A stretch of 61,716 nt of DNA. It comes from Magnetococcales bacterium. Lineage in GTDB: Bacteria > Pseudomonadota > Magnetococcia > Magnetococcales > DC0425bin3. Under the pieces are notes generated by a model. It saw only the letters and a list, made by a program, of their open reading frames with translations. It was not told the DNA's origin and searched no databases. The DNA is taken from positions 1 to 61,716 of the forward strand of contig JADGCO010000014.1 of the NCBI GenBank assembly GCA_015228935.1, in the 5' to 3' direction. A program made the translations under genes and the position numbers. This document shows, one piece after another, positions 10,665 through 60,670 of the stretch (within the stretch, counting starts at the first letter, position 1; the number at the start of each line of letters is the position of its first letter).

Positions 10665-10910
10665 ATGCAACTGATCGATGTGCGCGAAGCCAACGGCCAA
10701 CTCACCGAGTTGGTCAAGAAAGCTGTCAAAGGTGAAGAGGTGATTCTGACCGAGGATGGCCAACCGTGCGTCAAACTGGTCGTCATGGAACCGGTCCTGG
10801 ATCCCGCCCTGGCAAGGCAACCCAGAAAACCCGGCAGCGCAATAGGAAAAATTCTCTATATAGCCCCTGATTTTGATGCACCATTGGAGGATTTCAAGGA
10901 TTATATGTAA
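10665..10910 (+). CDS. type II antitoxin, Phd/YefM-like
   Basis: This is a small DNA-binding antitoxin of 81 residues. It has the typical N-terminal pattern MQLIDVREANGQLTELVKKAV, then GEEVILTEDGQPCVKLV. The C-terminal third (about 50-81) would bind and block the toxin. The ATG at 10665 has GGGAG upstream; the longer frame from 10611 would add an atypical tail. The stop overlaps the start of the PIN toxin gene by one base (TAATG). Such pairs usually repress their own promoter. It is divergent from the M1 peptidase gene. Confidence 0.9.
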   Translation: MQLIDVREANGQLTELVKKAVKGEEVILTEDGQPCVKLVVMEPVLDPALARQPRKPGSAIGKILYIAPDFDAPLEDFKDYM

Positions 10911-11302
10911 TGCAGATTCTGCTGGATACCCATGTGTTTTTGTGGTGGATCAACAGTCCCAACCACTTGTCAGGCCATGCCAGGGATTTGCTGTCCAATC
11001 CGCAAAACAGCTTTATCCTCAGTCTGGTCAGTGTCTGGGAATTGGCAATCAAGATCAGGCTTGGAAAACTCCATTTTTCTGAACCTCTCGACCAGTTTGT
11101 ATCCTGTGAAGTGACAGGCAATCAATTCCATCATCTGGACATCAAACTCCAGCATGTCACCAGGGTTGCCACTTTGCCGTTGCATCACCGGGATCCATTT
11201 GACCGGTTGCTCATTGCCCAATCCCTGGTGGAAGAGATGCCGATTTTATCCGCTGATGGCACTTTTGATTCCTATGGTGTCACACGGCTTTGGTCATCAT
11301 AA
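10910..11302 (+). CDS. PIN domain toxin (VapC-like)
   Basis: This is a likely RNA-cleaving toxin of 130 residues, the partner of the Phd-like antitoxin just upstream. PIN acidic residues are visible at D6 (LLDTHVFLWW), E43 (VSVWELAIK) and D94/D98 (HRDPFDRLLIAQ), plus a late D in ILSADGTFD. The short W-rich start is typical of PIN toxins paired with Phd antitoxins. The genes share one base, as usual for coupled toxin-antitoxin pairs. Confidence 0.9.
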   Translation: MQILLDTHVFLWWINSPNHLSGHARDLLSNPQNSFILSLVSVWELAIKIRLGKLHFSEPLDQFVSCEVTGNQFHHLDIKLQHVTRVATLPLHHRDPFDRLLIAQSLVEEMPILSADGTFDSYGVTRLWSS

Positions 11303-12975: not shown

Positions 12976-13326
12976 TCAAGCGGCACAGAGCGGAACGATA
13001 TTCTCCAGACCCGGAAGCGCATTTTTTGCAACGGCAAGATCGTAGCGGTTTTGGAGAGCGAGCCAGAATTCAGGGGTGGTACCCAAAACCCTGGCCAGTC
13101 GTAAGGCCGAATCGGCAGTGATGGCACGTTTGCCGCGAATAATCTGGCTGATGCGCAAGGCTGGCACGCCCATGGTCTTGGCAAGACGGTACTGCGTGAT
13201 GGCCAACGGTCTCATGAAATCTTCCAATAAAATTTCACCGGGATGCGTGAGTGGGACTGTTGCCGCCAGCGTATCGACCACATCGGAAAAATCAATACGG
13301 TCCAAATCCTCGCGCCGAATCGTCAT
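12976..13326 (-). CDS. HigA-family addiction module antidote (XRE/HTH)
   Basis: This is a DNA-binding antitoxin of 116 residues. It opens with MTIRREDLDRIDFSDV and has the HigA signature HPGEILLEDFMRPLAITQYRLAKTMGV, then the HTH core RISQIIRGKRAITADSALRLARVLGTTPEFWLALQNRYDL. I prefer the ATG at 13326 because AGGA and GGGAGG lie just upstream; the frame stays open to 13380. A HigB toxin normally precedes HigA in the operon, but none is visible in 13327-13446. It is therefore an orphan or acts with a remote toxin. Confidence 0.88.
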   Translation of the reverse strand: MTIRREDLDRIDFSDVVDTLAATVPLTHPGEILLEDFMRPLAITQYRLAKTMGVPALRISQIIRGKRAITADSALRLARVLGTTPEFWLALQNRYDLAVAKNALPGLENIVPLCAA

Positions 13327-13446
13327 GATTCCTGCCTCCCACAATTTACCGCGTGCCCGCTCGAGTACATCGAATGGCACCGTGCGTACCCGGAGTCCCT
13401 GAAACCTTCTTCGAAAAAGATAGATTCAGTAGAACACTGTCGCCTT

Positions 13447-18237: not shown

Positions 18238-18338
18238 TCTCCAGGAGGGTGGTTGGGACGGTGGTGAAGATGGCCGTAGCCAAAATTCGGTTCCCGGCAG
18301 TTCATCCACATAAGTAAAAATTGAAAACGGATATATCA

Positions 18339-21300
18339 ATGTCAAGATCAAAAACGTTCAGATTGTTTCTTAGTTCAACCTTCAATGATCTTCGGGCTGA
18401 AAGAGATAAACTCCAGGTGGAGGTGTTTCCCAAGCTTAGAAAGTATTGTGAGGATAGAGGGTTTAGTTTTCAGCCAATTGATCTTAGATGGGGAGTAAGC
18501 AGTGAAGCGGGTAATGATCAAAAAACCATGCAGATCTGTATTGATGAAGTAAAACGATGCAAAAATGCGCTAAATCCTCATTTTGCCATCATGCTGGGTG
18601 AGAGATATGGCTGGATACCGCTTCCGGCTGAAGTGGAAGCTGAAGAGTTTGATCTGGTCAAAAAGGCCGTATTGGCTAAATATCCAGGCGATTCAAAAGA
18701 GAAATCGTATATAGAGCTTTGGTACAAAAAAGATGAAAATGCCATTCCTGCAGAGTACAAACTGCAACCAAGGATAGAGTTAGAACACCAGAATTGGGAT
18801 TATTGGGGTGACGTGGAAAGCACTCTGAGAGAAGCATTTAGCTCCATCGTCAACAAAGAACTGAAAGATAAACTAAGCGATGAACAAAAATTTAAATATA
18901 CAAAGTCTGCTACCGAGCAAGAAATAATCGAGGGGCTTTTTAATAATGAAAATATAGCCAAAGAAAATATTTTCTTTTACAAAAGAAATTTTGAGAATAT
19001 AGACAGTTTAAGTGAAGGAGAAATTGCTATACTTGAAGAAAAAGACAGAGCCTATAGAAAAGAGGTAGAAAATTATAACGCAACAAATCCAGATAAAAAG
19101 AAAGCAGCCTATGAGATAACCGTCAAACACTTCAGTGACTTCAAGAATAAAGAAAATAAACTGGATGACAAAATTAGGCCGTGCCATCACGAACTGACTA
19201 ATAAAATTATATCCGATCTGCCAGAACAAAACGTAAAAATATATAATATAAAATTGGACGTTGGATTAGCGCGAACCCAGGATAGTGTAACTGAAGGCTA
19301 TCTGCAAAAATTTTCAGATGATTTTTACAAGAATATCCTTGCATCAATAAAAAAAGAGATAGATGCTTATCAGGAAGTCGATATTCAAACCAGAGAACTT
19401 AATGAACAGCAAAACTTCTTAATTGAAAAGGCCAAGATATTTGTCGGACGCGAGAAATTGTTGCAACAAATAGATGACTATATTGGCAGTGAAGAGTCCA
19501 ATGCGCCACTGATAATTTATGCGGACTCTGGATCAGGAAAATCAGCTTTAATGGCAAAGGTTGTTAAAAATACAATAGAAAGCTCTTTGAATGATGGAAC
19601 AACTATCGCCTATCGATTTGTAGGAATTAGTGAACTATCAAACAGCCCTATCAATCTTCACAATTCATTGTGTGCCGAGCTTGTAACAAACGAAGCCTTA
19701 AGAGAGTTGTGCGTTACTTATATAGATGAAAATGAACTGAAGCCAGATCATGTGTTAATTGATCTTAAAGAATTAAGCAAAATGTTGGCTTATTTGATTG
19801 AAAATTTCCCTGAAGATCAAAAGCTGATACTCTTTATTGATGCACTGGATCAATTCGTGATTAATGATCCTCTTGACTGGCTGCCCAGAATACTGCCAAG
19901 CAATGCTAAAATCATTATCTCAACATTGCCTGATACTTATCAAGGAATTAAGTACCTGCCAAGACTCAAACAAAGATATGCGAATCGTGAGGAAAGCTTT
20001 TTGTTTCTGGAAAAGTTTGCTGCAGATGAAGCAAGCCACATGATTGATGAGTACCTTAAGTCATTTAAAAGAACCCTGAATAAAACACAAAAACAAAAAG
20101 TGCTGAAGGCCTTTAGCCAGAGCGGCTCACCACTTTACCTGAAAATCCTGCTTGAAGAAGTCAGTGAGTGGAAAAGCTATACAAGTGTGGGAAGTGAAAC
20201 CTATCCCAAAGAACTGGATGATTTAATTGCACGATTATTTGAACGTCTACACACCAACTCTTACCATTCCCATCCATTAATTAAATTTGCTTTTGCTTAT
20301 ATCGCCTGTTCAAAGGGTGGACTGCCTGAGCCAGAGCTGTTTGATATTCTATCTCAGAATAAGGCCATCATGGATGATGTCTCCAATGAATTCTACCCAC
20401 GACCAGAGCGACTTCCTACCGCCGTCTGGGCAAGGCTTTTTTCTCAAGTATCGCAATATCTTACTGTCAAAAAAGTTGATGGACTCGATAAGATTAGCTT
20501 CTTTCATAGAAAATTTAATGAAGGTGCCTATAAGCTGCTTGAAAACAGAGAAGTTGCACATGCTAATCTGGTCAACTTCTATGAAGCAGTTTATAACAAA
20601 ACACTCAACGTGGATACTTCTGAAGAGTCGGCCCTAACCGAACTCCCTTACCAACTGATTATGTCCAAACAAAATGAAAAGTCCCTTACCCTTTTAACGG
20701 ACTTTGAGTTTTTGATGAAAAAATTCAAGCTTAATAAAACCGGGGATGTGCTGGAAAATTATGCGTTAGCAAAAGCAATGGGTATAAATCAGGAGACAAC
20801 ACAAAATAATCTAAATGAAAAATTTTACATCTATGATAACTTCTTAATCTCAAACAAACACCTATTAGAGCAAGGTGATAATGATTGGGATAGTTCAAAG
20901 ATATTCTTTCAACTTTCAATTGAACATGCAAATAATTCTCAACTTACTATTGATGCTGAAGAGTATGAGAAACAGGGAAAGATTGCTTTTAATTATCTTA
21001 GAAATATTAATAGAGATGAGGGGATTTACATCTCTCCATTAAAAGATATTTTAAAATCTCATAATGATAGAGTTGAAGGTTTGGTTAAATTAAAAAATGG
21101 AGGATTTTTATCGTATTCCAGGGATGAAAAAATTATAATTTGGAGTGATGATGCTCATGAAATGGCAGTATTAAATGGTCATGAGGGTTCCATAGATGGA
21201 GTGATTGAGTTGGGTAGTGGGTATTTGCTATCCTGGAGCGAGCAAGATGAAACTGTAAGAATGTGGAATCTAGATGGTGAAGGAGTTTATAAGCTAGATA

Positions 21301-24131
21301 AGATAAAAGTAGTCGGTGTTATAGAGAAAAATAATGACAATATTTTAATAAAATCCCTCGGATCATCTGAAGATAGACGTTTTCATTTGCTTCATTTACT
21401 AGATCCTTATGAAAATACATTGAAGACTTTTAAAAAGCACAATGATGAAATCGGTGGTGTTTTAGAGTTGCGCAATGGAGATAATTTATCATGGTCAGAA
21501 GATGGGCCGTTGAGAATTTGGGATAATAATCTGAAAGAAAAGGTCGTATTTAGTGAACACAAGACAGGAGTAAGAGGTGCAATAGGGCTGAGCAATAATA
21601 ATATTGTGTCTTTTTCAGAAAAGCAACTTTTAATATGGAATTTAGACAAAGAGATTGTGGCAAAAATTAAGTTTGATAACTCAATCACGTTGGTGAAGCA
21701 ACTTAAAAATACGAGCATAGTAGTCTGTTTAGTTAATCTTATAAAAGTTCTTAATCAAGATGGAGATTTAATTGCATCATTTTTTGAGCATAAAGATCTC
21801 GTTGAAAATGTTGTAGAGTTAGGTGATGATAGGTTGCTTTCTTATTCGAGAGATAAGACAATAAGAATTTGGAATCTAAATGGTGAAGAACTTGCCTGTC
21901 TTAAAGGTCATCATGATGGTATTGCTGGAGTCTTGTTACTTCATAATGGTGATATCGCATCATATTCTTACGACAATACGATTAGAATATGGGGGCAGGA
22001 TGGATCGGAATTGGCTGTATTAGAGGCTCATGAAAACTATATCGATTATTTAATTGAGTTAGAAAGTAATGTGTTGGTCTCTAGCGGTAGAGATAGTGAG
22101 ATAAAGGTTTGGAATATAGCTAATTTAAAATATGCTAAAAGCGATAAAAAACGTATTCCGATAGAGAAAGAAGGAATTATAGTTCAAGGTAACGAGATAT
22201 TTTCCATTCACGAAGGAAGCTTTTATCGCTGGAATCAACATAATAGTGATAGCAATGCATTTCTAGGGCATAAAAAGTCTGTAGTTGGTGTTGTTAAAAC
22301 CACGTTTGACACAGTAATATCTTATGCTGAAGATTACACATTAAGAGAATGGGATTTTAATGGAGTGCAATTATCTATATTAGATGGGCTTTATGAAAAT
22401 GTAAAAGGCGTTTTAGAATATTCACCAAATAAAATGATCGCTTGGTCTGATCATAATGCATTTATTTGGGATGCTAAACAGAATATTTCAACAAATTTTT
22501 TTGGCCTTGAAGGCGGAGAATTAAAAAAAGCCATCGCTTTAAAGAACGGTAATATTGTTTGCATTTTTGATCGTAGTAAGTATGTATACTGCTATACAAG
22601 AAATGGTGAAATTCAATTTGTGGCCAAAGGGCATAATCATCGTCTACGTGATGTAATTGAATTGAGTAATGGTAATTTAATCTCATCATCATCAGATAAT
22701 ACATTAAGGTTGTGGAATAAAGATGGTGATGAACTGGCTGTTTTTGAAGGGCATGAACATGTCGTTTTTGGTGCAATTGAATTAAGTGATGAAACTATAT
22801 TGTCATGGTCTTATGATAAAACATTAAGGACTTGGAATAGTGAAGGTAGAGAATTAGCTGTTTTTGAAGGACATGGTGATGGTATTAATGGGGCCTTAGA
22901 ATTAAGGAATAAATCAATCTTATCATGGGCAGGAGACAATACGCTGATTCTTTGGAACAATGAAGGGGATCAGATTTTAAAATTTGAAGGACATGACGCT
23001 GCCATCACGGGTGCTTTAGAGCTTAGAGATGGAAATATATTGTCCTGGTCTCAGGATAGTACACTAAGATTGTGGAATTTAGAAGGGAGAGAGTTAGCTG
23101 TTTTTAAAGGACATGAAGGAAGTGTTGCTGCTGCAATAGAAACAGATGATGGGATTTTATCGTGTTCAAAGACCTCGGTTGGCACATTAATATTATGGGA
23201 TAAATCAGGAAATGTACTCAAAATTTATGATGAACATAATAATTTTGTACAAGGAATAAATAAAATTAATGAATTAATTATATCCTATGATAGTAGCGGG
23301 GTTATGATTGTTAGGGATAATCATGGAGTTCAGCAGAAAAAATTAGAAGAAAATGGCGAAGCTGTAAAAAGTATTTTAGAACTAGAAAACGGAAAATTAT
23401 TATATTTTTCTTCATATGGTTTACGCGAGTTGGATATTGAAAAGATGACATCCAAAAAAATAATAGGGGATCATGTTGCTGGTATTGAGGGTTTGATCAA
23501 ATTGGCAAATGGGAACGTACTATCATATTCAGTAGATGCCACATTAAAGTTATGGGATATTCACGGGAAAGAGATCTCAGAAATGAAAGGTCATACCTTT
23601 CAGATTCTTGGAGCAATTGAGTTATCAAATGGGAATATTTTATCATATTCATTTGATAATTCTCTTAAGATATGGACGACTGAGGGCGATGAATTAGTGA
23701 CTTTAGAAGGTCATAATCAAGCGGTTCGTGGTGCGGCAGAACTAGATGGCAACGTAATTTTATCGTGGTCTGATGATAAAACAATTAGGCTTTGGACATT
23801 TAATGGTGAGGAAATTGCGTGTTTTGATAAAGATGATACGGACAGTTGGAAAAAGCACCCAGAATATTATGAAAAAGCAAAATGGTATCATATCGGTTAC
23901 GGTAGCCATGTAGCAATCAGTTACGATGGTCATGCAGTATATGTGAATAACAATTGTCTAATTTTGAATATGGAAAATAATTTGAAGTGGTACTCAAAAT
24001 ACACACCTGAAATTCTTGCAAAAATAAATAATTTTATTGCTATATTTGATGGAAATAAAATTAAATTTTTAGAGGTAGTCAAGCACAAAATTAAATTGCG
24101 CGACCTTCGTGGCCTGTGGATTTTTGGATAA
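18339..24131 (+). CDS. giant DUF4062-STAND NTPase-WD40 protein
   Basis: This protein of 1930 residues has an N-terminal DUF4062-like domain (about 1-110; FRLFLSSTFNDLRAERD, then PIDLRWGVSSEAG, then AIMLGERYGW). A helical linker follows, then a STAND/NACHT-type NTPase (about 360-800) with Walker A ADSGSGKSAL and Walker B LILFIDALDQF. The region about 905-1850 holds around twenty WD40-like blades (pattern GH...GxIEL..GNxLSWSxDxTLRLW). The plan resembles NWD1/TEP1/NPHP3-type proteins and bacterial STAND defence sensors: WD40 senses, STAND oligomerises, and the N-terminus signals or kills. No catalytic effector is obvious, so DUF4062 may be it. The ATG at 18339 is preferred over the TTG at 18321. 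The gene is AT-rich and probably acquired. Confidence 0.88.
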   Translation: MSRSKTFRLFLSSTFNDLRAERDKLQVEVFPKLRKYCEDRGFSFQPIDLRWGVSSEAGNDQKTMQICIDEVKRCKNALNPHFAIMLGERYGWIPLPAEVEAEEFDLVKKAVLAKYPGDSKEKSYIELWYKKDENAIPAEYKLQPRIELEHQNWDYWGDVESTLREAFSSIVNKELKDKLSDEQKFKYTKSATEQEIIEGLFNNENIAKENIFFYKRNFENIDSLSEGEIAILEEKDRAYRKEVENYNATNPDKKKAAYEITVKHFSDFKNKENKLDDKIRPCHHELTNKIISDLPEQNVKIYNIKLDVGLARTQDSVTEGYLQKFSDDFYKNILASIKKEIDAYQEVDIQTRELNEQQNFLIEKAKIFVGREKLLQQIDDYIGSEESNAPLIIYADSGSGKSALMAKVVKNTIESSLNDGTTIAYRFVGISELSNSPINLHNSLCAELVTNEALRELCVTYIDENELKPDHVLIDLKELSKMLAYLIENFPEDQKLILFIDALDQFVINDPLDWLPRILPSNAKIIISTLPDTYQGIKYLPRLKQRYANREESFLFLEKFAADEASHMIDEYLKSFKRTLNKTQKQKVLKAFSQSGSPLYLKILLEEVSEWKSYTSVGSETYPKELDDLIARLFERLHTNSYHSHPLIKFAFAYIACSKGGLPEPELFDILSQNKAIMDDVSNEFYPRPERLPTAVWARLFSQVSQYLTVKKVDGLDKISFFHRKFNEGAYKLLENREVAHANLVNFYEAVYNKTLNVDTSEESALTELPYQLIMSKQNEKSLTLLTDFEFLMKKFKLNKTGDVLENYALAKAMGINQETTQNNLNEKFYIYDNFLISNKHLLEQGDNDWDSSKIFFQLSIEHANNSQLTIDAEEYEKQGKIAFNYLRNINRDEGIYISPLKDILKSHNDRVEGLVKLKNGGFLSYSRDEKIIIWSDDAHEMAVLNGHEGSIDGVIELGSGYLLSWSEQDETVRMWNLDGEGVYKLDKIKVVGVIEKNNDNILIKSLGSSEDRRFHLLHLLDPYENTLKTFKKHNDEIGGVLELRNGDNLSWSEDGPLRIWDNNLKEKVVFSEHKTGVRGAIGLSNNNIVSFSEKQLLIWNLDKEIVAKIKFDNSITLVKQLKNTSIVVCLVNLIKVLNQDGDLIASFFEHKDLVENVVELGDDRLLSYSRDKTIRIWNLNGEELACLKGHHDGIAGVLLLHNGDIASYSYDNTIRIWGQDGSELAVLEAHENYIDYLIELESNVLVSSGRDSEIKVWNIANLKYAKSDKKRIPIEKEGIIVQGNEIFSIHEGSFYRWNQHNSDSNAFLGHKKSVVGVVKTTFDTVISYAEDYTLREWDFNGVQLSILDGLYENVKGVLEYSPNKMIAWSDHNAFIWDAKQNISTNFFGLEGGELKKAIALKNGNIVCIFDRSKYVYCYTRNGEIQFVAKGHNHRLRDVIELSNGNLISSSSDNTLRLWNKDGDELAVFEGHEHVVFGAIELSDETILSWSYDKTLRTWNSEGRELAVFEGHGDGINGALELRNKSILSWAGDNTLILWNNEGDQILKFEGHDAAITGALELRDGNILSWSQDSTLRLWNLEGRELAVFKGHEGSVAAAIETDDGILSCSKTSVGTLILWDKSGNVLKIYDEHNNFVQGINKINELIISYDSSGVMIVRDNHGVQQKKLEENGEAVKSILELENGKLLYFSSYGLRELDIEKMTSKKIIGDHVAGIEGLIKLANGNVLSYSVDATLKLWDIHGKEISEMKGHTFQILGAIELSNGNILSYSFDNSLKIWTTEGDELVTLEGHNQAVRGAAELDGNVILSWSDDKTIRLWTFNGEEIACFDKDDTDSWKKHPEYYEKAKWYHIGYGSHVAISYDGHAVYVNNNCLILNMENNLKWYSKYTPEILAKINNFIAIFDGNKIKFLEVVKHKIKLRDLRGLWIFG

Positions 24132-24445
24132 CCGGGACGCAATCTGGTGGAATCCATCCAATGAGTAACGACCAACAGGGACTGGTGGGCCAACCGACCT
24201 GATTTGAAACGTCCACTTTCGCCGACATGACCACCCCTGATGCACCGGAAAATTTCGGCAATTCAAATCAGCGCGGTTGGTCCACTAGAGCTTATCCGTA
24301 CCTGGAAATTGACTTGACGATGGGGTCCACTTCTATTAGCGCGAACCTTTCGAGGAAACCAAGCTGGCAGAGACATCGTCGCGATCCCAACGGCGATTTT
24401 GGCTTCCCCTGAATCCTCTTTTCGTGGCTGACTCGGTCATGGCTC
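24132..24445. other. GC-rich remnant between the two island genes
   Basis: This stretch of about 314 bases has no intact gene, and its base composition differs from both AT-rich neighbours. It could be the end of a decayed mobile element; on the minus strand the open frame around 24069-24266 reads like degraded coding sequence. I cannot identify the source. It marks the 3' boundary of the STAND gene. Confidence 0.3.
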
Positions 24446-24609
24446 AGAGGCTGTCCATTAACCCTCGGATAAAAAAATTGGAAAGAAAGATTTTATTGGG
24501 GCTCCGCCCCAAACCCCGCCAAGAGGAAGGGCACAGCCCTTCCTCCTGGACCTCCATCCCAGTTTTTCATTCGTTTTTTTTGAAATTAACAAGTTATTAG
24601 ACAGCCTCT
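24446..24609 (+). repeat. MITE-like palindromic repeat, copy 2
   Basis: This element of about 164 bases is bounded by AGAGGCTGTC at 24446 and its inverse GACAGCCTCT ending at 24609. Next to the ends it has ATTAACC and the matching AATTAACAAG. The centre contains GGGGCTCCGCCCC and a long hairpin around AGGAAGGGC...GCCCTTCCT. It is nearly identical to 45539-45703. It lies between the convergent STAND and TrkA-N/RyR genes. It has no coding capacity, so it would need a transposase in trans. Confidence 0.75.
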
Positions 24610-24642
24610 CAAGGCCGCCATTTGCAGCAATCCTTCTATTTA

Positions 24643-26610
24643 TTAATTACCGCCTATGAACTTGTCTAGACTTGGAATTCTCATAATGGTTTCTATATCA
24701 TCAGATTTATAATCATGCTGATGATTTTTTGAAACAATGTCTAGTTCGTCCCAACCAACAAGACATGGATGGAGCTTTCTAATTTTATCCTTGACGATTT
24801 TATTCGTCGCGCCCTCCGGGATACCCAGCTTTTTCCAGCCATTGAGAATATGGAAAGCATTCCAACGTTTATGTTCAACTTTTCCTAGCTGGACTATTTC
24901 TTCTTCTGAAAGCTTGAGAGCATAATCATGATCTCTTAATCCCATTGCATCCCAGTTAATGGCCATTTTCGGATAATTGAAAAACTTATCCGATACTGAT
25001 TTTTTTAGCGCATTATAGTCATTATTTATTTTTGATTCCGCAATAAGCTTGTTGATCAGATATTTTTTCACCTCATTATGTTCCATCAAATATCGATTTG
25101 AATCTTTCAAAAAAACATCAAGATCATTCCATTGTTCTTCTACCGTTTTGTTTTCCTTGTTATATCCATGAAGTTGATTGTATTGACTATTATTTAGTTT
25201 AGCTTTTTTATCCAACTCTTCATTAATGACGATCTGGTAACTACAAGTATGATCGATTTCGCCAAACGTTCTCACCTTTTTAAAGACTGTGTGTTTATCA
25301 AGCTTCTTATCATTTTGAATTACCCTTGCGGTGTTTGCAAAGCTATTTGAATATATCGCGATATCAATATCATTTGATAGTATTTCATCATTATATTTTT
25401 TCAGGATCTTCATTAAGTTTGAAAGCGACTCAAATTCATTCTCGTAAGCAATAATGATTTGCTGATATTCACCAATATCCTTTTGCACAAAGTCACCATC
25501 ATCTATGAACTCAATATCCCAATATTCATTAAATGATGTATTTTTTCTTTGATTTTTATCGATTCCTATATTGTATTGCTTGATAAATTCATCAAGAATA
25601 TTAGCATTCTCATCTTTATCAGTATCATATACGACAGTAACTTTTATGGGATTTTCGTTATAAAAGTGCCCCAAATGCAAAGCATGCACTAAAATACTCT
25701 CACCAAGCTTACCAAAACCGAAAATTGCGATTTTCACATTTATTTTAGAATCCTTTATCTTCTGAGAATCAGTAAAAATATTGCTTCCTAACAGATTCTG
25801 CCTGTCACCAAATAATATCCGAGCGGAATTCGCATTAACACTGAATATTTTTACATCCAGTTTATGACTCTCTTGAAAATCCCTTGCCATAAAAAAATCA
25901 TAGAACTCATTATGGATCAAATGAACGTAACAGAGAATTTTATTTTCTATCTTTGCTTGAAAAGCTGTCAGGGTGGAAACGATCTCCATATTGGTTGAAT
26001 CATTACTTGTTAAAATTATCACATATTTAGCGCTTTGCGTCTTTGCTTTTCCGAGAATTTCTTCATTTGTCGCATCGCCAAAAATAATTATCGCCTTTTT
26101 ACTTTTCAATAAATCCACATTTGAGTTGTTTTTATTAGTCTCAATAAACACAAACAGTTTTCCATGATCGGGATGTGAAAAATCTTCCGCTCTTTTCATC
26201 CAGTCCAGTCCCAGAGCTTTGCCTTTACTGCCGGCCCCAATAATTACAATATGATCTTTCCCTTTTCTGAAAAGATTGATTTTATCGATAAATATATGAG
26301 CAACAGCCAGCATGACGGCCCAAAATGTCGCTATAGCTGATAACCAGCGACCTAATTCCAGCACCCATGGTATACGTGTATCAATGTTCGGTGTCTGAAG
26401 TTCAAATCCGAAAACTCTTATTGAGTGATAAACATAATCATGCCAATTGCCGTGGAGAGAATTTTCTTCAAACATCATTTTAAATCCAACGATATCGCAG
26501 ACAAATGCTACCACCATCAAGAGAAAAAGGCCAAAGCTCCAATCGTTTTCATTGAAAAATACATTCAGTTTCTTAAAATACTGATTAATTTTAAAAGGGC
26601 TCTTTTTCAT
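24643..26610 (-). CDS. membrane TrkA-N (RCK-like) protein with C-terminal RyR domain
   Basis: This 655-residue protein has two N-terminal membrane segments (about 25-48 and 92-112), a Rossmann domain with IVIIGAGSKGKALG (about 122), a second with IAIFGFGKLGES (about 300), and a C-terminal RyR-type domain (about 570-640). The last shows LGKVEHKRWNAFHILNGWK and HPCLVGWDELD. No K+-channel TVGYG filter is visible between the membrane helices, so it may be a sensor rather than a channel. RyR and TrkA-N domains occur together in bacterial conflict and nucleotide-signalling systems, as far as I recall. A GGAGGGG site precedes the ATG. It is convergent with the STAND gene and shares its AT-rich composition. 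Confidence 0.82.
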   Translation of the reverse strand: MKKSPFKINQYFKKLNVFFNENDWSFGLFLLMVVAFVCDIVGFKMMFEENSLHGNWHDYVYHSIRVFGFELQTPNIDTRIPWVLELGRWLSAIATFWAVMLAVAHIFIDKINLFRKGKDHIVIIGAGSKGKALGLDWMKRAEDFSHPDHGKLFVFIETNKNNSNVDLLKSKKAIIIFGDATNEEILGKAKTQSAKYVIILTSNDSTNMEIVSTLTAFQAKIENKILCYVHLIHNEFYDFFMARDFQESHKLDVKIFSVNANSARILFGDRQNLLGSNIFTDSQKIKDSKINVKIAIFGFGKLGESILVHALHLGHFYNENPIKVTVVYDTDKDENANILDEFIKQYNIGIDKNQRKNTSFNEYWDIEFIDDGDFVQKDIGEYQQIIIAYENEFESLSNLMKILKKYNDEILSNDIDIAIYSNSFANTARVIQNDKKLDKHTVFKKVRTFGEIDHTCSYQIVINEELDKKAKLNNSQYNQLHGYNKENKTVEEQWNDLDVFLKDSNRYLMEHNEVKKYLINKLIAESKINNDYNALKKSVSDKFFNYPKMAINWDAMGLRDHDYALKLSEEEIVQLGKVEHKRWNAFHILNGWKKLGIPEGATNKIVKDKIRKLHPCLVGWDELDIVSKNHQHDYKSDDIETIMRIPSLDKFIGGN

Positions 26611-40422: not shown

Positions 40423-41604
40423 TTACTCACCCTCTTTTATTTTTGGGGACACAGGCGATCCTGGAGAGGTTGAAGGCGTCGAAGGTTTTGGACGCCATTT
40501 TGATTTTAGTTTGTTGAATTCGGTGTTCAGACACTCTAAATCTGTTCCTTGACCCTTTTTGCTGCATATTTCCAGAGCAGACCTGTTAAAAACCTGCTCC
40601 AGATAGTCATCCTTCTGGTCATCAGGAACCGTTGGAAGAGTATATACACCAAGAACCTCCGATGGTGTCACTTCTCCATTCGCAACTGCCTGATTGTTGG
40701 ACCAAGCATTATTAACTGCTCCTTTGGTCATCTTTTTATAGACCTTGTTAACCCCACCCGCAGACAAGATCCCTAATACACCATACTTCAGCCCCTTTCT
40801 GATTACTTCCTTGGTTGCCTCTTTTCCCGTTGGAGAAGAGCCTGGAGTATTTTGTGCCAGGATCATTAGCCCGCCATTGTCGTGTGATTCAACCGACTGG
40901 CCTTCATTTTGTTGAATAGCAGTCTCACCCTGATCACCCGCATACCCGAACTTGTTGGAATCCTGGCCGGAGTTCTCATACGCATTCAGGTAGGCATTGG
41001 TTCCGTCAACATCATACGGATCATCGGCACGAGAAGCCATGATCCTGGCCAAGCCGGGATTTATGGACAACAACCCGTTCGATGCCGAATAAGAGGATGT
41101 GCCAAGTGGTGACTTGCTGGGCCTGAATTTGGCCACGGCATCCGGGGCTTGTTGCCCAGAATACAGGGTTTGTCCTGTCCTGGACTGATTGGAGTGACCA
41201 AGAAAGCCGTTCAACTCACCCAACGTTTTGTTGACAGATTTTCCTGTATCCCAGTATGAGGGATCATCTTTTCGTGCCGGAGCCTTCAACCCCAAGAAAC
41301 TTCTGGAGAAGGTATGGGCATCATTCAGATTGCTCTCCATGCGGTTCAATGTCGTTGGATCTTTCTGTGACATGGCTGTCCCCAAATCCTGCCGCAGATA
41401 CTCCATATGCTGGGGATCTCCGGTCATATGAGCCACCAAAAACTCCGGGGTTGGATTCAGTCCGGTAACACGTTGCACCTGTTGCCTCGCCCGGTTGGCT
41501 GCCAGATATTGATCGTATTCGGTTTTGGCCTCGGTGATTCCTTTCCTGCTCCCATTCAGAATGTTGGAAACCTGATTTTTGATGCCGTCGTCAAACTTGT
41601 ACAC
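40423..41604 (-). CDS. effector-family protein sharing the N-terminal domain of the Tlde1-like toxins
   Basis: The first 140 residues of this 393-residue protein match the N-terminal domain of the two proteins at 57122-58210 and 59338-60570. Shared features are an N..N/S..K motif, EYDQYLAAN, GLNP, LVxHxTGDPxHMEYL, and the FLGLKAP/YFGMDAP region. The C-terminal part differs: a Ser/Gly-rich linker, a hydrophobic stretch (GLKYGVLGILSAGGV, about 285), then a region with C-x10-C and a Pro-rich end. I do not recognise the C-terminal domain; it may be a different toxin or a neutral version. I start at GTG 41604, with GGGAG seven bases upstream, because it aligns with the starts of its relatives. Confidence 0.75.
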   Translation of the reverse strand: MYKFDDGIKNQVSNILNGSRKGITEAKTEYDQYLAANRARQQVQRVTGLNPTPEFLVAHMTGDPQHMEYLRQDLGTAMSQKDPTTLNRMESNLNDAHTFSRSFLGLKAPARKDDPSYWDTGKSVNKTLGELNGFLGHSNQSRTGQTLYSGQQAPDAVAKFRPSKSPLGTSSYSASNGLLSINPGLARIMASRADDPYDVDGTNAYLNAYENSGQDSNKFGYAGDQGETAIQQNEGQSVESHDNGGLMILAQNTPGSSPTGKEATKEVIRKGLKYGVLGILSAGGVNKVYKKMTKGAVNNAWSNNQAVANGEVTPSEVLGVYTLPTVPDDQKDDYLEQVFNRSALEICSKKGQGTDLECLNTEFNKLKSKWRPKPSTPSTSPGSPVSPKIKEGE

Positions 41605-41779
41605 TTTCCGTCTCCCTGGTTGCAACACATTTTACCCGGCAAGGGATGAAGACTTCAATCCACTACCGGAGGTCGGAGTGAAGCCACACTGAAACATCTT
41701 AAATATTACTGTCTGACAAAACAGACCCTTGCCTCGCATTTTATTTCACGAAGCTTCAGCAAATTCCTGCCCAGAAAAC

Positions 41780-55387: not shown

Positions 55388-55750
55388 TCATAACACCCTA
55401 ACGATGCCTGTATTTACAAAATATGCTACAGGAATAAACACAAAAACATACATCAAGCATATAATTATAAACCCGCAAAAATTACATATAACTCTCATAA
55501 AAATCCGCCTTTTCATACAATAAAATAATACATAAGCACCGAAAAATAAAGATGATACTGAAATAAATTGGCAACTAAAATTTGAACTTTTACAAATATC
55601 AAATTTACCTCTGCTGATATCATCTCCAAAATAATAATACATGAGATATATTTCTAACAATACTATCAAACACATCGCAAAAATATCTAAAAAAATTATA
55701 AAATATTTTAATAATTTTGCACCATTAAATTTATTCGGCTTACACATCAT
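55388..55750 (-). CDS. probable immunity protein D, small membrane protein
   Basis: This AT-rich protein of about 120 residues has about four hydrophobic segments. It shares the array's pattern G-K-F-D-x-C, six residues, C-Q-F, then C-M-K-R-R-I...R-V-x-C-x-x-C-G-F, with the immunity proteins at 55999, 56667 and 58812. It follows the decayed toxin tip D. By position and membrane topology it should protect against a periplasmic peptidoglycan-acting toxin. The ATG at 55750 has AAAGG six bases upstream; the frame opens at 55780. Confidence 0.7.
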   Translation of the reverse strand: MMCKPNKFNGAKLLKYFIIFLDIFAMCLIVLLEIYLMYYYFGDDISRGKFDICKSSNFSCQFISVSSLFFGAYVLFYCMKRRIFMRVICNFCGFIIICLMYVFVFIPVAYFVNTGIVRVL

Positions 55751-55807
55751 GCCATGCCTTTCATATAAAACATGGACCAATCCAAGAGGCCTACATTCTT
55801 AAATTTA

Positions 55808-55955
55808 TTACTTTCTATCCATGTTATACTTGACATACAAAGCAAAATCCTAACCATGCTTCTTAAATTAATCAACAAAGTCGTCCATTTTGTCTGTTAG
55901 ATCAATGCACCCTGCTGAACCGGGAGTCCACCCTTAATGCGTCGTAAACCAATAA
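55808..55955 (-). pseudogene. decayed toxin tip D
   Basis: The minus strand encodes GWTPGSAGCIDLTDKMDDFV and the rest of the toxin's C-terminus, with two in-frame stops (after DDFVD and after KKHG) and a one-base loss before GWTPG. It ends like the toxin at 59338 (KY....RK). It is therefore a dead remnant of a displaced toxin 3' end, left in front of immunity gene D. Confidence 0.8.
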
Positions 55956-55998
55956 AGATAATGAATATTCACCCTGTTAAAAGCATACCAATAACATC

Positions 55999-56391
55999 TT
56001 AAAATGACATCTCACCAATATAATAAGACATCGGCGACACCACGTAATGTACAATGATAAAAAATAATATAACACCACAAATCACACATAGATGCCGATA
56101 TTTTATCTTCCTTGATATACATGTATATATCACCGCACCTGAAATTATTGCATTTACTGTAGAATAAAACTGACAAATATAATGTTTATTACTGCAAAAA
56201 TCATATTTTCCTTCGGTTGCATTTAATATATCAGGCCTTAAATATGCTATATAGACACTATAAATAAATATTAAAAATATCAAAATAATAACCAGCAATG
56301 AAATTCGATCCGTAATAATCAATATATACCAAGCCACTGATTTTAATAATTTCATTAATTTTAAAGAATAATATCCATAATTAACCTTCAT
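55999..56391 (-). CDS. probable immunity protein C, small membrane protein
   Basis: This AT-rich protein of about 130 residues has four hydrophobic segments and the family pattern GKYDFCSNKHYICQF...CISRKIKYRHLCVICG. It is the most diverged of the four homologues (RHLC instead of RIPC). It sits downstream of toxin tip C. The ATG at 56391 has AAGGA nine bases upstream and is preferred over 56421. Confidence 0.7.
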   Translation of the reverse strand: MKVNYGYYSLKLMKLLKSVAWYILIITDRISLLVIILIFLIFIYSVYIAYLRPDILNATEGKYDFCSNKHYICQFYSTVNAIISGAVIYTCISRKIKYRHLCVICGVILFFIIVHYVVSPMSYYIGEMSF

Positions 56392-56504
56392 GATAAAATA
56401 TCCTTCACAAACTTTAACCATCTATCAAACAAGTCTCTTGAACATCTTCCAATAATGAATTTATCCAAGAGACTTGTGAAGTCTACATGATCTTCGATTT
56501 ACAT

Positions 56505-56645
56505 TCAGTACCTGACGAACAAAGGAACATCTTGACCGTGCTTTTTGAACCAGTCGGCAAAGTCATCCATCTCTCCTATCAGATCAATACATCCTACCGA
56601 ACCAGGAGTCCACCCTTCATAAATCAGAAACTACAAACGATTATT
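56505..56645 (-). pseudogene. orphan toxin tip C with lost catalytic histidine
   Basis: The minus strand encodes the last part of the toxin (GWTPGSVGCIDLIGEMDDFA...) with an intact end and stop. Just upstream, the catalytic stretch reads NRL-stop-FLIYEG where the active toxins have NRSGFTIHGG. The histidine has become tyrosine and a TAG interrupts the frame. The 5' nine-tenths of the gene is missing. The end matches the toxin at 57122 (LFVRY). Confidence 0.8.
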
Positions 56646-56666
56646 AATATTTAATAGCTAGAAAAT

Positions 56667-57029
56667 CTAATGAATTTTACTTAATAACTCAGCTATTGGC
56701 CTAATAAAATAGTAGTAAATAATTAAATAAATAGTAAATCCACATATTATACAAGGAATTCTAATTAAAATTTGTCTTTTTAGACAACCAAACAGCGTGA
56801 TACCGATAAAAAACAATGTCGAAACCACCATAAATACACAAGGATAATTATTATAAACACAAAGATCAAATTTTAAATAATAATGACCAAATCCAAATTT
56901 ATAGGTAAAATCTATTGAGAATAATAAAACAAACCATATCAAAAGAAAGTCAAGCATCACTAAAACAGATCTTGAGAAATATTTTAATAATTTAATATTG
57001 CTTATCGATATAAACATTTCATATAACAT
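56667..57029 (-). CDS. probable immunity protein B, small membrane protein
   Basis: This AT-rich protein of about 120 residues has four hydrophobic segments and the array pattern KFDLCVYNNYPCVF...CLKRQILIRIPCIICGF. It follows the intact toxin at 57122-58210 by 92 bases on the same strand, the order expected for a toxin and its immunity gene. The start is uncertain: ATG 57029 is preferred, TTG 57044 is possible. Its base composition is far more AT-rich than the toxin gene's 5' part. Confidence 0.7.
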   Translation of the reverse strand: MLYEMFISISNIKLLKYFSRSVLVMLDFLLIWFVLLFSIDFTYKFGFGHYYLKFDLCVYNNYPCVFMVVSTLFFIGITLFGCLKRQILIRIPCIICGFTIYLIIYYYFIRPIAELLSKIH

Positions 57030-57121
57030 ATCATTATCTTTCAAAAAAGTCTCTTGAATATCTTCTGAAAAAGAATTTATTCAAGAGACTTATAAAATCC
57101 TACGTGATCTTCGGTTTACAT

Positions 57122-58210
57122 TCAGTACCTGACAAACAAAGGAACATCTTGACCGTGCTTTTTGAACCAATCAGCAAAGTCATCCATTTGGTCCGTCAGA
57201 TCGATACAACCGGCTGACCCTGGAGTGCTTCCCCCATGAATCGTAAATCCCGAACGATTATAGGTTTCCACACCTGGTGCAGGTTTCAACCAAACACGAC
57301 GACGACCCCAGGGTCCGGTACCTCCCGGCCAAGTCCCTTTATCGATCAATGACAAAGCTTTCTGGGTTAATGAAAGATCGTCATACGATTGATAATTCTC
57401 CTGATTAACATTCCATTTACCCTCTGGAATTGGTCCAGCCCCCGGTTGATTCTGATACATCGGATTTTGAAACTCTCCTGCCCCTGAAACTCCTTTCCAG
57501 GACTTGACTTTCTTACCATCTTCCCAATGAGCAAGTTCATTTCCGTTATACGTCATAAAACTCCTGAGACCTGGCTCAGGTGGAACAATAGTATGTTCCA
57601 AGATCCGATCTCCATCATCCACCACATAAGTCGGTTGGATCGACCCAGAAGCATTTGACATCCAGGCTGGATTGGCCCCTCCTGTGTCACTATCAATTTC
57701 TTGAGGAGGCAGTGTCGGCGTTGGCTGCTGCTGGGTCTGTGACATCCTGGCAGCCTGTTGTGGTCTGGATTGGGTCTGGGTGTTGTTTTGATTCCCTTGC
57801 CCGCCCAGAAACTGGCCCAACTCGTTGAAGGTTTTCCAGGCCGACTTGTGCAGATACATGCTGTCTGGATCAGACTGGCGGGAAGGCGCATCCATACCGA
57901 AATACTTTCGGTAAAAATCATGCGTATCCTCCAGATTTTTCGTGATACGACGCAAGGTGGTCGAGTCGCGTTGCCGCATGGTCAGATCAATATCATCCCC
58001 AAGATATTCCATATGCACCGGATCTCCGGTTGCATGCACCACCAAACTTTCATTGGCGGGATTCAGACCGGTCAGCCATCGCAAGCGTTGGCGTGTCTCA
58101 TTGGCAGCCAGATATTGGTCATATTCCGTGTTGGCATTGTTCATCTTGTTGCTGCCGGTTTCCAGAATTTGATAGACCCGGTTCCTATGCTCATCTTCGT
58201 CGAAACCCAT
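57122..58210 (-). CDS. Tlde1/DUF2778-like toxin B (L,D-transpeptidase fold)
   Basis: This 362-residue protein has a shared N-terminal domain (1-135), a Gln-rich linker (about 140-190) and a C-terminal DUF2778/Tlde1-like domain (about 230-362). The toxin domain shows GVSGAGEFQNPMYQNQPGAGPIPEGKW, a WxGG...RVWLKPAPG stretch and the catalytic motif FTIHGG...GSAGCIDL with His and Cys ten residues apart. Tlde1 proteins are type VI effectors that cut or exchange peptidoglycan stem peptides; that delivery route is inferred, since no secretion gene is in the window. The ATG at 58210 has GGAG six bases upstream; the frame runs on to 58309. Immunity gene B follows. Confidence 0.82.
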   Translation of the reverse strand: MGFDEDEHRNRVYQILETGSNKMNNANTEYDQYLAANETRQRLRWLTGLNPANESLVVHATGDPVHMEYLGDDIDLTMRQRDSTTLRRITKNLEDTHDFYRKYFGMDAPSRQSDPDSMYLHKSAWKTFNELGQFLGGQGNQNNTQTQSRPQQAARMSQTQQQPTPTLPPQEIDSDTGGANPAWMSNASGSIQPTYVVDDGDRILEHTIVPPEPGLRSFMTYNGNELAHWEDGKKVKSWKGVSGAGEFQNPMYQNQPGAGPIPEGKWNVNQENYQSYDDLSLTQKALSLIDKGTWPGGTGPWGRRRVWLKPAPGVETYNRSGFTIHGGSTPGSAGCIDLTDQMDDFADWFKKHGQDVPLFVRY

Positions 58211-58755
58211 CTTCTTCTCCAAGTTATCATGGTCGATCCAGGTCCGCAAGCCAAATGCAGCATGCTGCAAGGCATTGCAGAAGACATGGCGGGGCCAAAG
58301 CCCCGCCATGGATTGTTACACTGACAGGCGTTGCCAGTTACAGACGTTGGCGGATTTCGGCCACCATTTGCGGCTTGATTTTGCTTTCCCAATTGCTGAG
58401 CAGGGCCTGTCGGTCTTCCGGGGGAGGTTGTGGTTGCCCCCGGTTGGGCATACCGGCATCTGGATTGTTGCCCGGTCCCTCTCTGTCTGGTGCTGGTTTG
58501 CGACCCATGGCACGATCCAGACGCCCGGAACGTGCCATTTCTCCCAGTTGGTTATAATCCTCCTGCACCTGTTTGGGATCGAAGCGTTGCAGGCGGGCCA
58601 TGTGGGTACCGGCGATATCCAACGCCTTGTAGAAGGCCATTTCCCGTTGTTGATCGGTGAATCTGGCCACACCGACCGACTCGGCCAGGGAGATCAGTTC
58701 TCCCATGATTTCCATGCCACCCTGCATGGCAATTTCGCCCGGAATGTGCATGCCG
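57740..58755. repeat. ~1-kb direct repeat, matching 60100-61115
   Basis: The region from the toxin B linker through the N-terminal domain, the hairpin and most of the truncated array gene repeats at an offset of 2360 bases with very few differences. Outside these limits the two copies diverge sharply in the toxin domains and at the deletion scar. This points to recent duplication or ongoing gene conversion of the N-terminal half, with the toxin half exchanged. Confidence 0.85.
58285..58310. other. perfect 11-bp hairpin upstream of toxin B
   Basis: CATGGCGGGGC and its exact inverse GCCCCGCCATG flank a CAAA loop. It lies between the truncated array gene and the toxin start, 75 bases before the ATG. 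The same hairpin precedes toxin A at 60645-60670. No T-run follows on the minus strand, so it may be an mRNA stabiliser, attenuator or protein target rather than a terminator. Confidence 0.7.
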
Positions 58756-58797
58756 CTCCCATTGACCACAAACTTTTCGTTCAAAAGCTGCTCTATT
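58338..58797 (-). pseudogene. truncated copy of the 246-residue array gene
   Basis: This is the 3' part of the gene at 60698-61438, nearly identical from the GMHIPGEIAMQGG stretch to the stop. The first 60 or so codons are gone, and an internal block of about 42 codons is deleted so that KFVVNG joins directly to SGMHIPG. The left-over open frame has 148 codons. Immunity gene A ends 15 bases upstream of the scar. It arose when the array unit was duplicated and then deleted. Confidence 0.8.
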
Positions 58798-58811
58798 GGC
58801 CAAAATGATGA

Positions 58812-59198
58812 TCAAGGCCTTAAAAAAAGAGCTATCGGCATAATTAGACAAGCATAGATTAATACAAACAAGACAAAACCACAAATTATACATGGAATGC
58901 GAATTATGATTTTTTTTGTTAAACAAATATACACAATAAATCCACAAACAATCAAAGACGATATCGCGATAAATTGACAAATATATTCGCGGTTATCACA
59001 TAAATCAAATTTACCTCTATTCTTGTCTTCGTAAAAAAATGTCAAATATACTCCAACAGCATTTATAATGGTAAATAACATGATTGACCATGACAAAACA
59101 AGATCAGTCAAAACAATAATTGACCGAGATAAATTATCAATAAATCCCGATTTTCTTTTTGATTGATTATTTACATTGAATACCATCTCTCCACCCAT
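58812..59198 (-). CDS. probable immunity protein A, small membrane protein
   Basis: This AT-rich protein of 128 residues has four hydrophobic segments and the family pattern GKFDLCDNREYICQF...CLTKKIIIRIPCIICGF. It lies 140 bases downstream of toxin A on the same strand. With three homologues in the array it defines an immunity family with four conserved cysteines, perhaps paired as disulfides or binding metal. ATG 59198 and ATG 59186 are both possible starts. Confidence 0.72.
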   Translation of the reverse strand: MGGEMVFNVNNQSKRKSGFIDNLSRSIIVLTDLVLSWSIMLFTIINAVGVYLTFFYEDKNRGKFDLCDNREYICQFIAISSLIVCGFIVYICLTKKIIIRIPCIICGFVLFVLIYACLIMPIALFLRP

Positions 59199-59337: not shown

Positions 59338-60570
59338 TTACTTTCTATTTTTTCCATATTTGACATACAAAGGAACATCCTGACCATGCTTCATAAACCA
59401 ATCAGCAAAGTCATCCATTTTGTCTGTCAAATCAATGCACCCTGCTGAACCAGGAGTCCACCCCCCATGAATCGTAAACCCGGAACGATTATAGGTCTCC
59501 ACTCCTGGCGCAGGTTTCAACCAAACACGATGATCACCCCATGATACTGTTCCCCCTGGCCATTTTCCTATATTTTTCTTGAGGATTTTATCAACTTTTA
59601 AAGCTCTAAGCCCTCCTCCAATCCACGACGTAGCTTGCTCTGACATGGTAAGATCATTAAACTTCTGGTGATTTTTTTGTTTGACATCCCACTTACCCTC
59701 AGGTATTGGGCCCATCGCTGCCATGTCTTGATATTTTGCATCTTGAAACTCATCTTTTCCCGACACACCCGCCCAGCTTTTGACCTTCTTGCCATCCACA
59801 AAATGCGCAAGTTCATCCCCATTGAAGGCCAGCCAACTTTTGACTCCTGGCTCTGGTGGCTCTGCAACACCAGGAAACACAGATACCACTCGGGTCGTTT
59901 TGGGTACGGACATCATCTGGCTCAATGATTGACCAACATTTCGTACAGACTCCTTCACCTGGTTGACAATCCGATTGCCTGCTTCCGTCATGTAAGCTGC
60001 ATGCATCGCCCCGGGCACTCTGGACAACCCAGTTGATCCACCCCCTCCTGTACTGTACTCCTGAGGAGGCAGTGTCGGCATCGGCTGCTGTTGGGTCTGG
60101 GTCATCATGGCAGCCTGTTGCGGCCAGGATTGGGTCTGGGTGTTGTTTTGATTCCCTTGCCCGCCCAGAAACTGGCCCAACTCATTGAAGGTTTTCCAGG
60201 CTGACTTGTGAAGATACATGCTGTCCGGATCAGACTGGCGGGAAGGCGCATCCATACCGAAATACTTTCGGTAAAAATCATGCGTATCCTCCAGATTTTT
60301 CGTGATACGACGCAAGGTGGTCGAGTCGCGTTGCCGCATGGTCAGATCAATATCATCCCCAAGATATTCCATATGCACCGGATCTCCGGTTGCATGCACC
60401 ACCAAACTTTCATTGGCGGGATTCAGACCGGTCAGCCATCGCAAGCGTTGGCGTGTCTCATTGGCAGCCAGATATTGGTCATATTCCGTGTTGGCATTGT
60501 TCATCTTGTTGCTGCCGGTTTCCAGAATTTGATAGACCCGGTTCCTATGCTCATCTTCGTCGAAACCCAT
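59338..60570 (-). CDS. Tlde1/DUF2778-like toxin A (L,D-transpeptidase fold)
   Basis: This 410-residue protein is nearly identical to toxin B over residues 1-170 and then diverges. Its linker is longer (about 170-265). The toxin domain has GVSGKDEFQDAKYQDMAAMGPIPEGKW, an extra helical stretch (IGGGLRALKVDKILKKN), then WGDHRVWLKPAPG and the catalytic FTIHGG...GSAGCIDL. The end is extended (KYGKNRK). Same fold and same likely target, but a different sequence variant, as expected for polymorphic toxins. The ATG at 60570 has GGAG six bases upstream. Immunity gene A follows. Confidence 0.82.
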   Translation of the reverse strand: MGFDEDEHRNRVYQILETGSNKMNNANTEYDQYLAANETRQRLRWLTGLNPANESLVVHATGDPVHMEYLGDDIDLTMRQRDSTTLRRITKNLEDTHDFYRKYFGMDAPSRQSDPDSMYLHKSAWKTFNELGQFLGGQGNQNNTQTQSWPQQAAMMTQTQQQPMPTLPPQEYSTGGGGSTGLSRVPGAMHAAYMTEAGNRIVNQVKESVRNVGQSLSQMMSVPKTTRVVSVFPGVAEPPEPGVKSWLAFNGDELAHFVDGKKVKSWAGVSGKDEFQDAKYQDMAAMGPIPEGKWDVKQKNHQKFNDLTMSEQATSWIGGGLRALKVDKILKKNIGKWPGGTVSWGDHRVWLKPAPGVETYNRSGFTIHGGWTPGSAGCIDLTDKMDDFADWFMKHGQDVPLYVKYGKNRK

Positions 60571-60644
60571 CTTCTTCTCCAAGTTATCATGGTCGATCCA
60601 GGTCCGCAAGCCAAATGCAGCATGCTGCAAGGCATTGCAGAAGA

Positions 60645-60670
60645 CATGGCGGGGCCAAAGCCCCGCCATG
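60645..60670. other. perfect 11-bp hairpin upstream of toxin A
   Basis: CATGGCGGGGC-CAAA-GCCCCGCCATG lies between the stop of the 246-residue gene and the toxin A start. It is identical to the hairpin at 58285-58310. Its conservation within the duplicated block cannot be separated from the recent duplication itself. Confidence 0.7.

Follow-up and report, generated by a model that had tools for sequence, protein, structure and literature searches.

What is the role of a bacterial membrane protein that joins two transmembrane helices and TrkA_N/RCK-like Rossmann domains to an RyR domain, the binding domain for small molecules that animal ryanodine receptors also have, and that lacks the selectivity filter of a K+ channel? 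The question is raised by a gene at positions 24643-26610 of contig JADGCO010000014.1 (assembly GCA_015228935.1) of a Magnetococcales bacterium, of which the stretch from position 1 to 61,716 was analyzed here (61,716 nucleotides, hereafter the window). An initial annotation, made from the sequence, had proposed that the protein senses a nucleotide and permeabilises the membrane rather than controlling K+ flux; it omitted a second Rossmann domain, the strand (minus) and an adjoining gene, which codes for a DUF4062-NACHT-WD40 protein and is the source of the main evidence for function. We consider that the two convergent genes, at 18321-26610, probably form a two-part immune system of the abortive-infection type, in which a filter-less effector formed by two transmembrane helices and RCK-like domains (2TM-RCK) is gated by a signal of the ADP-ribose type, and we give this reading a probability of about 0.58. 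The features of the RyR-domain protein are the following:

24643..26610, minus strand: gene for the RyR-domain membrane protein (two transmembrane helices, two Rossmann/RCK-like domains, RyR; 655 residues, ATG start)
26482..26538, minus strand: transmembrane segment 1, residues 25-43 (hydropathy)
26383..26448, minus strand: inter-helix loop of putative function at the pore-loop position, residues 55-76, containing SIRVFGFELQTP and without a K+ filter
26287..26343, minus strand: transmembrane segment 2, residues 90-108 (hydropathy)
25951..26250, minus strand: TrkA_N/RCK-like Rossmann domain 1, residues 121-220 (Pfam TrkA_N, E 6e-13)
26221-26238, minus strand: GAGSKG, first Rossmann motif, residues 125-130
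25585..25734, minus strand: Rossmann domain 2, residues 293-342 (Pfam F420_oxidored, E 1.9e-4, and alignment)
25702-25719, minus strand: GFGKLG, second Rossmann motif, residues 298-303
24682..25143, minus strand: RyR (Repeat12) region, residues about 490-643, its N-terminal end judged by eye in the alignment
24862-24876, minus strand: EHKRW of the RyR region
24769-24771, minus strand: codon of His614

Hydropathy finds the two N-terminal helices that had been claimed, no TVGYG-like motif occurs within the first 140 residues, as had also been noted, and GAGSKG lies inside the TrkA_N match, in keeping with its description as the first Rossmann motif. The RyR domain is likewise present, in a diverged form: the Pfam RyR model (PF02026) matches residues 587-643 with an E value of 0.0048 and 17.6 bits, below its cut-off of 27.4, yet a single-sequence search of solved structures retrieves a RyR1 chimera (6uhi) at 4.3e-8 and a bacterial RyR domain (4n05) at 5.3e-4. 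The RyR match is weaker, 2.5e-4, with a two-row profile made of the window protein and L001, its closest relative. A four-row profile, with three relatives, reaches the RyR1 chimera at 1.2e-18, the bacterial RyR domain 6uag at 3.3e-9, Repeat12 of human RyR3 (9l90) at 2.2e-6 and the RCK domains of the GsuK channel (4gx0) at 1.9e-5, and with an eight-row profile the best RyR match is at 5.5e-30.

Proteins with this channel-like architecture were found in 14 loci, in 12 of which the N-terminus is available (the window, L001, L016, G270, G122 with locus L027, G066, G060, G006, G820 twice, G819, G817, G827, and G897 with locus L096). L001, from a metagenome-assembled genome of Thioploca, is 72-74% identical to the window protein, and L016, from Fusobacterium vincentii, 22%. 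Matches confined to the TrkA part were not counted as members, and G181 (no TrkA), G041 (in a phage-like region) and G843 and G868 (short frames with RyR only) were left out. The protein is rare: in a single phylum sample of about 398 genomes (in which, by coordinates, G668, G522 and G466 are the same as G270, G122 and G066), it was found at 1e-10 in 4 of 398, the window's own genome included, in a search that missed G060 and G006, and it was not found in three other genomes of the window organism's family. An RyR domain above the Pfam cut-off occurs in 7 of the 398 genomes, the window's own not among them; five of the seven hold channel-like proteins, G181 holds a RelA/SpoT-TPR-RyR protein and G041 has its RyR domain in the phage-like region. 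A viral origin was looked for, and no relative was found in viral contigs (searched with three proteins) or in a phage collection (searched with the window protein by tblastn, E 1e-5).

Other arrangements of the domain were seen in passing. At L029:7541-10063, a RelA/SpoT-TPR-RyR protein without a TrkA match has the RyR domain fused to a nucleotide-synthetase-type domain; a further RyR match, at about 9234-10175 of L040, has neighbours that look phage-like by eye (single-stranded DNA-binding protein, exonuclease, integrase) and could be a prophage member of the RyDEP kind (see below). In L027:8766-10970, L091, L092, L093 and L096 an extra region, SLOG-like by eye, follows the RyR domain; the window protein, L001 and L016 lack this extension.

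The conservation of the family is concentrated in the RyR region. PF02026 and TrkA_N are each matched at E<=0.1 by 12 of the 14 members, and 12 alignment columns are invariant across all 14 rows; seven of these fall in the RyR region (Trp494, Lys515, Glu579, His580, Arg582, Trp583 and His614). According to the available text of a 2026 preprint (PMC13232231), phage RyR-domain proteins, among them sponges and a hydrolase, bind 2'cADPR and 3'cADPR, isomers of cyclic ADP-ribose (cADPR), in the case of six of eight homologues tested, and the contacts named for one of them, RyDEP, are His75, Trp78, His100 and Asp117. Mapped by motif spacing and the RyR1 alignment, rather than on the RyDEP sequence itself, the first three would correspond to His580, Trp583 and His614. 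Asp117 falls near Asp633, with some uncertainty in the mapping; this position is Asn in L001 and shifted in others, which, if the mapping holds, suggests that the domain binds its ligand rather than hydrolysing it. ADP-ribose itself could be the ligand. The proposal that the protein senses a nucleotide is thus strengthened by the invariant ligand residues, by the phage binders of 2'cADPR and 3'cADPR and by the TIR or TIR-like partners described below; GAGSKG, to which sensing had been attached, fares less well. Gly125 of this motif is present in all 12 rows that have the region, whereas only 8 of the 12 retain the second glycine (Gly127) and 9 the third (Gly130), which makes the RyR domain the more probable sensor. 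Position 157 varies as well, and Gly298, of the second Rossmann domain, is invariant wherever that domain is present.

The gene that faces the RyR gene, with 511 bases between their ends, comprises the following features:

18321 (TTG opening the frame; first ATG at 18339) to 24131, plus strand: partner gene, DUF4062 - NACHT/STAND - WD40
18360..18623, plus strand: DUF4062 TIR-like domain (Pfam, E 2.2e-8)
18906..18926, plus strand: SATEQEI, probable place of the TIR-like catalytic Glu, presumably equivalent to TEP1 E1008 and KpSwz E97
19479..19859, plus strand: STAND/NACHT ATPase (NPHP3_N-type), with the Walker A motif ADSGSGKS at 19521-19544
21423..24131, plus strand: WD40 propeller region, putative sensor

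The DUF4062 match is the only one in the 4.7 Mb genome, and it adjoins the genome's only match to the RyR protein. The G+C content is 0.357 for the two genes with their spacer and 0.516 for the remainder of the window, as would fit a cassette acquired by transfer. A profile of the first 355 residues, built with the partner protein of L001 (53% identical overall, 68% over this part), retrieves the TIR domain of human TEP1 (11gz) at 8e-15. The available text of a second 2026 preprint describes DUF4062 as a TIR-like domain that cleaves nicotinamide adenine dinucleotide (NAD+) in antiphage defence, with E97 in KpSwz, and the TIR-like domain of TEP1 as active, with E1008 (PMC13174449). The motif S[AI]TE.E[IV] is found in all four DUF4062 partners with an open frame; which of its Glu residues would be the counterpart of TEP1 E1008 is presumed. 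A model of the DUF4062 region made with AlphaFold2 (AF2) from a two-row alignment has a mean confidence score (pLDDT) of 44.4 and is too poor for use.

Genes of this type recur next to the RyR gene. Among the 14 loci, four have an adjoining DUF4062 gene with an open frame (the window, L001, L092 and L093), three a TIR gene (L016, L027 and L096) and one a broken DUF4062 gene. In L001, the DUF4062-NACHT-WD40 gene lies next to the channel gene on the same strand; in L092 and L093, a DUF4062-NACHT-TPR gene, with NPHP3-type TPRs, is found directly upstream, and the channel frame of L093 is broken. The broken-frame DUF4062-NACHT pieces of L091 are 72-78% identical to the L092 gene over its N-terminal half. 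With regard to the TIR genes, a TIR-WD40 gene lies 3 bases upstream in L016 (TIR_2 2e-10, ThsB_TIR 1.8e-7), caspase-domain genes lie on both sides in L027 together with a convergent TIR-nSTAND1-WD40 gene, and a TIR-TPR gene is directly upstream in L096 (TIR_2 8.6e-23), its TIR domain matching ThsB models of PADLOC at up to 1.1e-12. The motif S.WC..E is kept in all three TIR partners. The genes are convergent in the window, the channel gene comes first in L001 and the NADase gene first in L016, L092, L093 and L096; this varying order indicates that the pairing is not a single inherited arrangement. A second RyR-like remnant (L091:13354-13569), 36% identical to the L092 channel, was also noticed near the broken DUF4062 gene of that locus.

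As a control we took the 20 best non-RyR TrkA matches, together with flanks of at most 8 kb (several limited by their contigs, the shortest stretch being 3.1 kb). Profiles built on five TIR proteins of the window genome and on two of the DUF4062 partners were run over these stretches and over the 14 case loci. A TIR or DUF4062 gene was found in 7 of the 14 case loci as opposed to 1 of the 20 controls (L104, which has a TIR gene), with a Fisher p of 0.004, and, when the cases were collapsed to seven lineages and the controls, all of one order, were left uncollapsed, in 5 of 7 and 1 of 20 (p 0.001); these p-values are rough, owing to kinship among the cases and among the controls, to the unequal lengths of the stretches and to the profile seeds. 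Two of the seven positive loci seeded the DUF4062 profile, and Pfam finds both independently. The window organism's 4.7 Mb genome has 16 TIR_2 matches, so that a nearby TIR gene is not in itself rare.

The membrane part was compared with K+ channels in several ways. Ion_trans_2 has no match in the window protein at E<=1, nor in the scan of the family, and 11 of the 12 members with an N-terminus have no TVGYG-like motif between the helices, the exception being SFGFG in L026. Among the 20 control TrkA proteins, all from the same order, 14 carry TVGYG or TLGYG; the motif lies there at residues 222-290, the membrane parts being longer. An alignment by hhalign of the 12 N-terminal regions with seven TVGYG pore regions has a probability of 1.2% (P 0.043) and spans 44 columns, from transmembrane segment 1 to the start of the loop. 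With the filter absent and no pore homology found by sequence or profile, the protein was rejected as a K+ channel. As it has neither a filter nor an Ion_trans_2 match, it is plausible that it permeabilises the membrane rather than controlling K+ flux, as the initial annotation had suggested; CASTOR, a plant 2TM-RCK channel without TVGYG, conducts selectively for Ca2+ according to the available text of its description (PMC6697748), so that a missing filter does not by itself imply an unselective leak. CASTOR was absent among the structure-database matches listed for the searches with the RyR protein. The loop residue Glu70 of the window protein is Asp in L001; a short helix at 56-66, between the transmembrane helices, appears in a low-confidence AF2 model and is not used as evidence.

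The sequences show the domains, the conserved ligand residues of the RyR region, the missing K+ filter and the repeated partnership with TIR or DUF4062 genes; from these we infer a signal, a pore and a role in defence, and the system would work as follows. A phage-related trigger would be recognised by the STAND protein through its WD40 region; the NACHT ATPase would then oligomerise and thereby activate the N-terminal DUF4062 domain as a TIR-like NADase, which would convert NAD+ to ADP-ribose or to an isomer of cyclic ADP-ribose. This NAD+-derived molecule would bind to the RyR domain through His580, Trp583 and His614, and the RCK-like ring would relay binding to the two-helix part, which would open, so that ion gradients would be lost and growth would stop.

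Several observations weigh against this proposal, in addition to the roughness of the p-values. L026, L038 and L039 have no TIR or DUF4062 gene; they have patatin genes instead (1.6e-24, 6.7e-24 and 1.8e-23). L028, on a contig of 7.3 kb, has an nSTAND1 gene and neither TIR nor DUF4062, and no partner was seen for L094 and L095 on their short contigs (5.3 and 8.1 kb). In the closest relative, L001, and also in L016 the Pfam RyR model has no match at E<=1, and the assignment of the domain depends there on the alignment and on the EHKRW...H motif. The inter-helix loop is not conserved across the family, L016 has three hydrophobic segments and not two, and the AF2 model of the RyR protein (two-row alignment, pLDDT 37.7) does not have the quality needed to reveal a pore. 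PADLOC returned no match for the window RyR protein or for the channels of L092, L096, L016 and L038. Moreover, the DUF4062 enzymes described in the available text of PMC13174449 make linear ADP-ribose and act by depleting NAD without a partner; this is the chief doubt about a signalling role of the domain. As to the loci with patatin genes, all three also have a gene of 569-604 residues whose N-terminus is SLOG-like by eye; SLATT_3, a 'SMODS and SLOG-associating 2TM effector domain' in the description of its Pfam model, matches this gene in L026 below threshold (1.6e-4, 22.4 of 26.3 bits) and gives no match in L038. In these recurring three-gene sets, the effector may receive its signal from another source.

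The enzymes that deplete NAD on their own lead to another explanation, in which the DUF4062-STAND protein kills by using up NAD+ and is held in check by the RyR protein, which would bind or hydrolyse the ADP-ribose or cyclic ADP-ribose products or tether the enzyme. The phage sponges and hydrolase would be precedents for such a brake (PMC13232231, available text), but it is not obvious why a brake should have a membrane part and two RCK-like domains, both conserved across the family, the acidic residue expected of a hydrolase is insecure (Asp633 in the window, Asn in L001), and the caspase-like genes at L027 suit, in our view, an effector locus; we regard the brake as unlikely. Nor is it likely that the RyR protein is a non-conducting membrane-anchored adaptor on which the STAND complex docks. 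The unconserved loop and a pore that could not be modelled speak for an adaptor; its 2TM-RCK layout, however, is that of ligand-gated channels, CASTOR conducts with the same layout and no filter (PMC6697748, available text), and the RyR ligand residues are invariant, all of which makes us doubt it strongly.

The TrkA_N match at 6e-13, the family-profile match to the RCK domains of GsuK, a K+ channel activated by ADP and NAD+ in the available text of its description (PMC3510474), and the glycines Gly125 and Gly298, kept wherever the two Rossmann domains are present, would all be accommodated by a housekeeping regulator of ion flux of the RCK type, sensing NAD(H) redox through its Rossmann domains beside neighbours that are incidental. 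Against such a regulator, the protein is rare in the phylum (4 of 398 genomes at 1e-10, in the search that missed G060 and G006) and was not found in the three other genomes of the family; it has no K+ filter, its RyR site is invariant although positions 127, 130 and 157 of the Rossmann domain are not, and the TIR and DUF4062 neighbours recur. We hold it to be the least probable of these explanations.

The ADP-ribose-gated effector that we favour can be set beside several known systems. Like Thoeris, the window pair would combine a TIR or TIR-like enzyme that cleaves NAD with a second protein whose own domain senses the product; a canonical TIR partner adjoins the effector in L016, L027 and L096, whereas in the window none was seen beside it and DUF4062 stands in its place. 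The window effector differs in being a 2TM-RCK protein with an RyR sensor, and the enzyme in being of the DUF4062-STAND-WD40 type. Swarozyc, a DUF4062 NADase, shares the TIR-like domain; in the available text of PMC13174449 it has a small C-terminal auxiliary domain that binds the portal, where the window protein has NACHT and WD40 and, in addition, a partner gene. By this comparison, the pair appears to be Thoeris-like in its working, outside Thoeris by its enzyme and outside Swarozyc by its auxiliary domain and its partner. Human TEP1, NWD1 and NPHP3 offer the DUF4062-NACHT-WD40 layout of the window and L001, and the DUF4062-NACHT layout with NPHP3-type TPRs of L092 and L093; the window system is bacterial, unlike these, and has an adjoining RyR membrane gene. 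GsuK and CASTOR have RCK-like domains beneath a unit of two transmembrane helices, CASTOR too being without TVGYG, and the window protein differs from them in that no sequence homology to K+ pores was found and in its added RyR domain. RyDEP, the other phage RyR proteins and animal Repeat12 share with the window protein RyR homology, by sequence and profile, and the His, Trp and His ligand residues; in the window the domain is fused to a membrane/RCK part and the catalytic Asp is not securely kept.

No RyR-TrkA membrane effector with TIR or DUF4062 genes as neighbours is described in the titles and the openings of abstracts among the literature matches listed, although a 2025 preprint on TIR systems may overlap. 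RyR and SLOG domains in conflict systems are reportedly discussed in a 2015 paper on nucleotide systems. More tentatively, and with less than even odds, a TEP1-like TIR enzyme would make the ADP-ribose-type messenger that opens an RyR-domain channel, as a prokaryotic counterpart of the disputed axis between cADPR and RyR in animals, and such channels might be a cellular source of the phage RyR sponges. If these proposals are true, TIR immunity would gain an effector resembling an ion channel, and the RyR domain a second role, as a host-side sensor of alarm molecules derived from NAD, opposing the phage RyR sponges and hydrolase; the opening of a channel by an RyR domain bound to an isomer of cyclic ADP-ribose would become testable in bacteria. 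The sensor parts would be exchanged (WD40, TPR, nSTAND) and the type of enzyme and the RyR effector kept constant, as in known modular immune systems.

Elsewhere in the window, two genes at 57122-58309 and 59338-60669, coding for 395 and 443 residues, are identical in their first 181 residues, and each matches YkuD/Tlde1 (L,D-transpeptidase). They are surrounded by small hydrophobic open reading frames of 125-140 residues (55388-59198), with which they may form duplicated effector-immunity pairs. An open reading frame of 401 residues at 40423-41628 resembles the YkuD/Tlde1 genes by eye and has no Pfam match. Finally, the genes at 10910-11302 and 12976-13380 code for a PIN-domain protein and an HTH_3 protein, both of them toxin-antitoxin-like.
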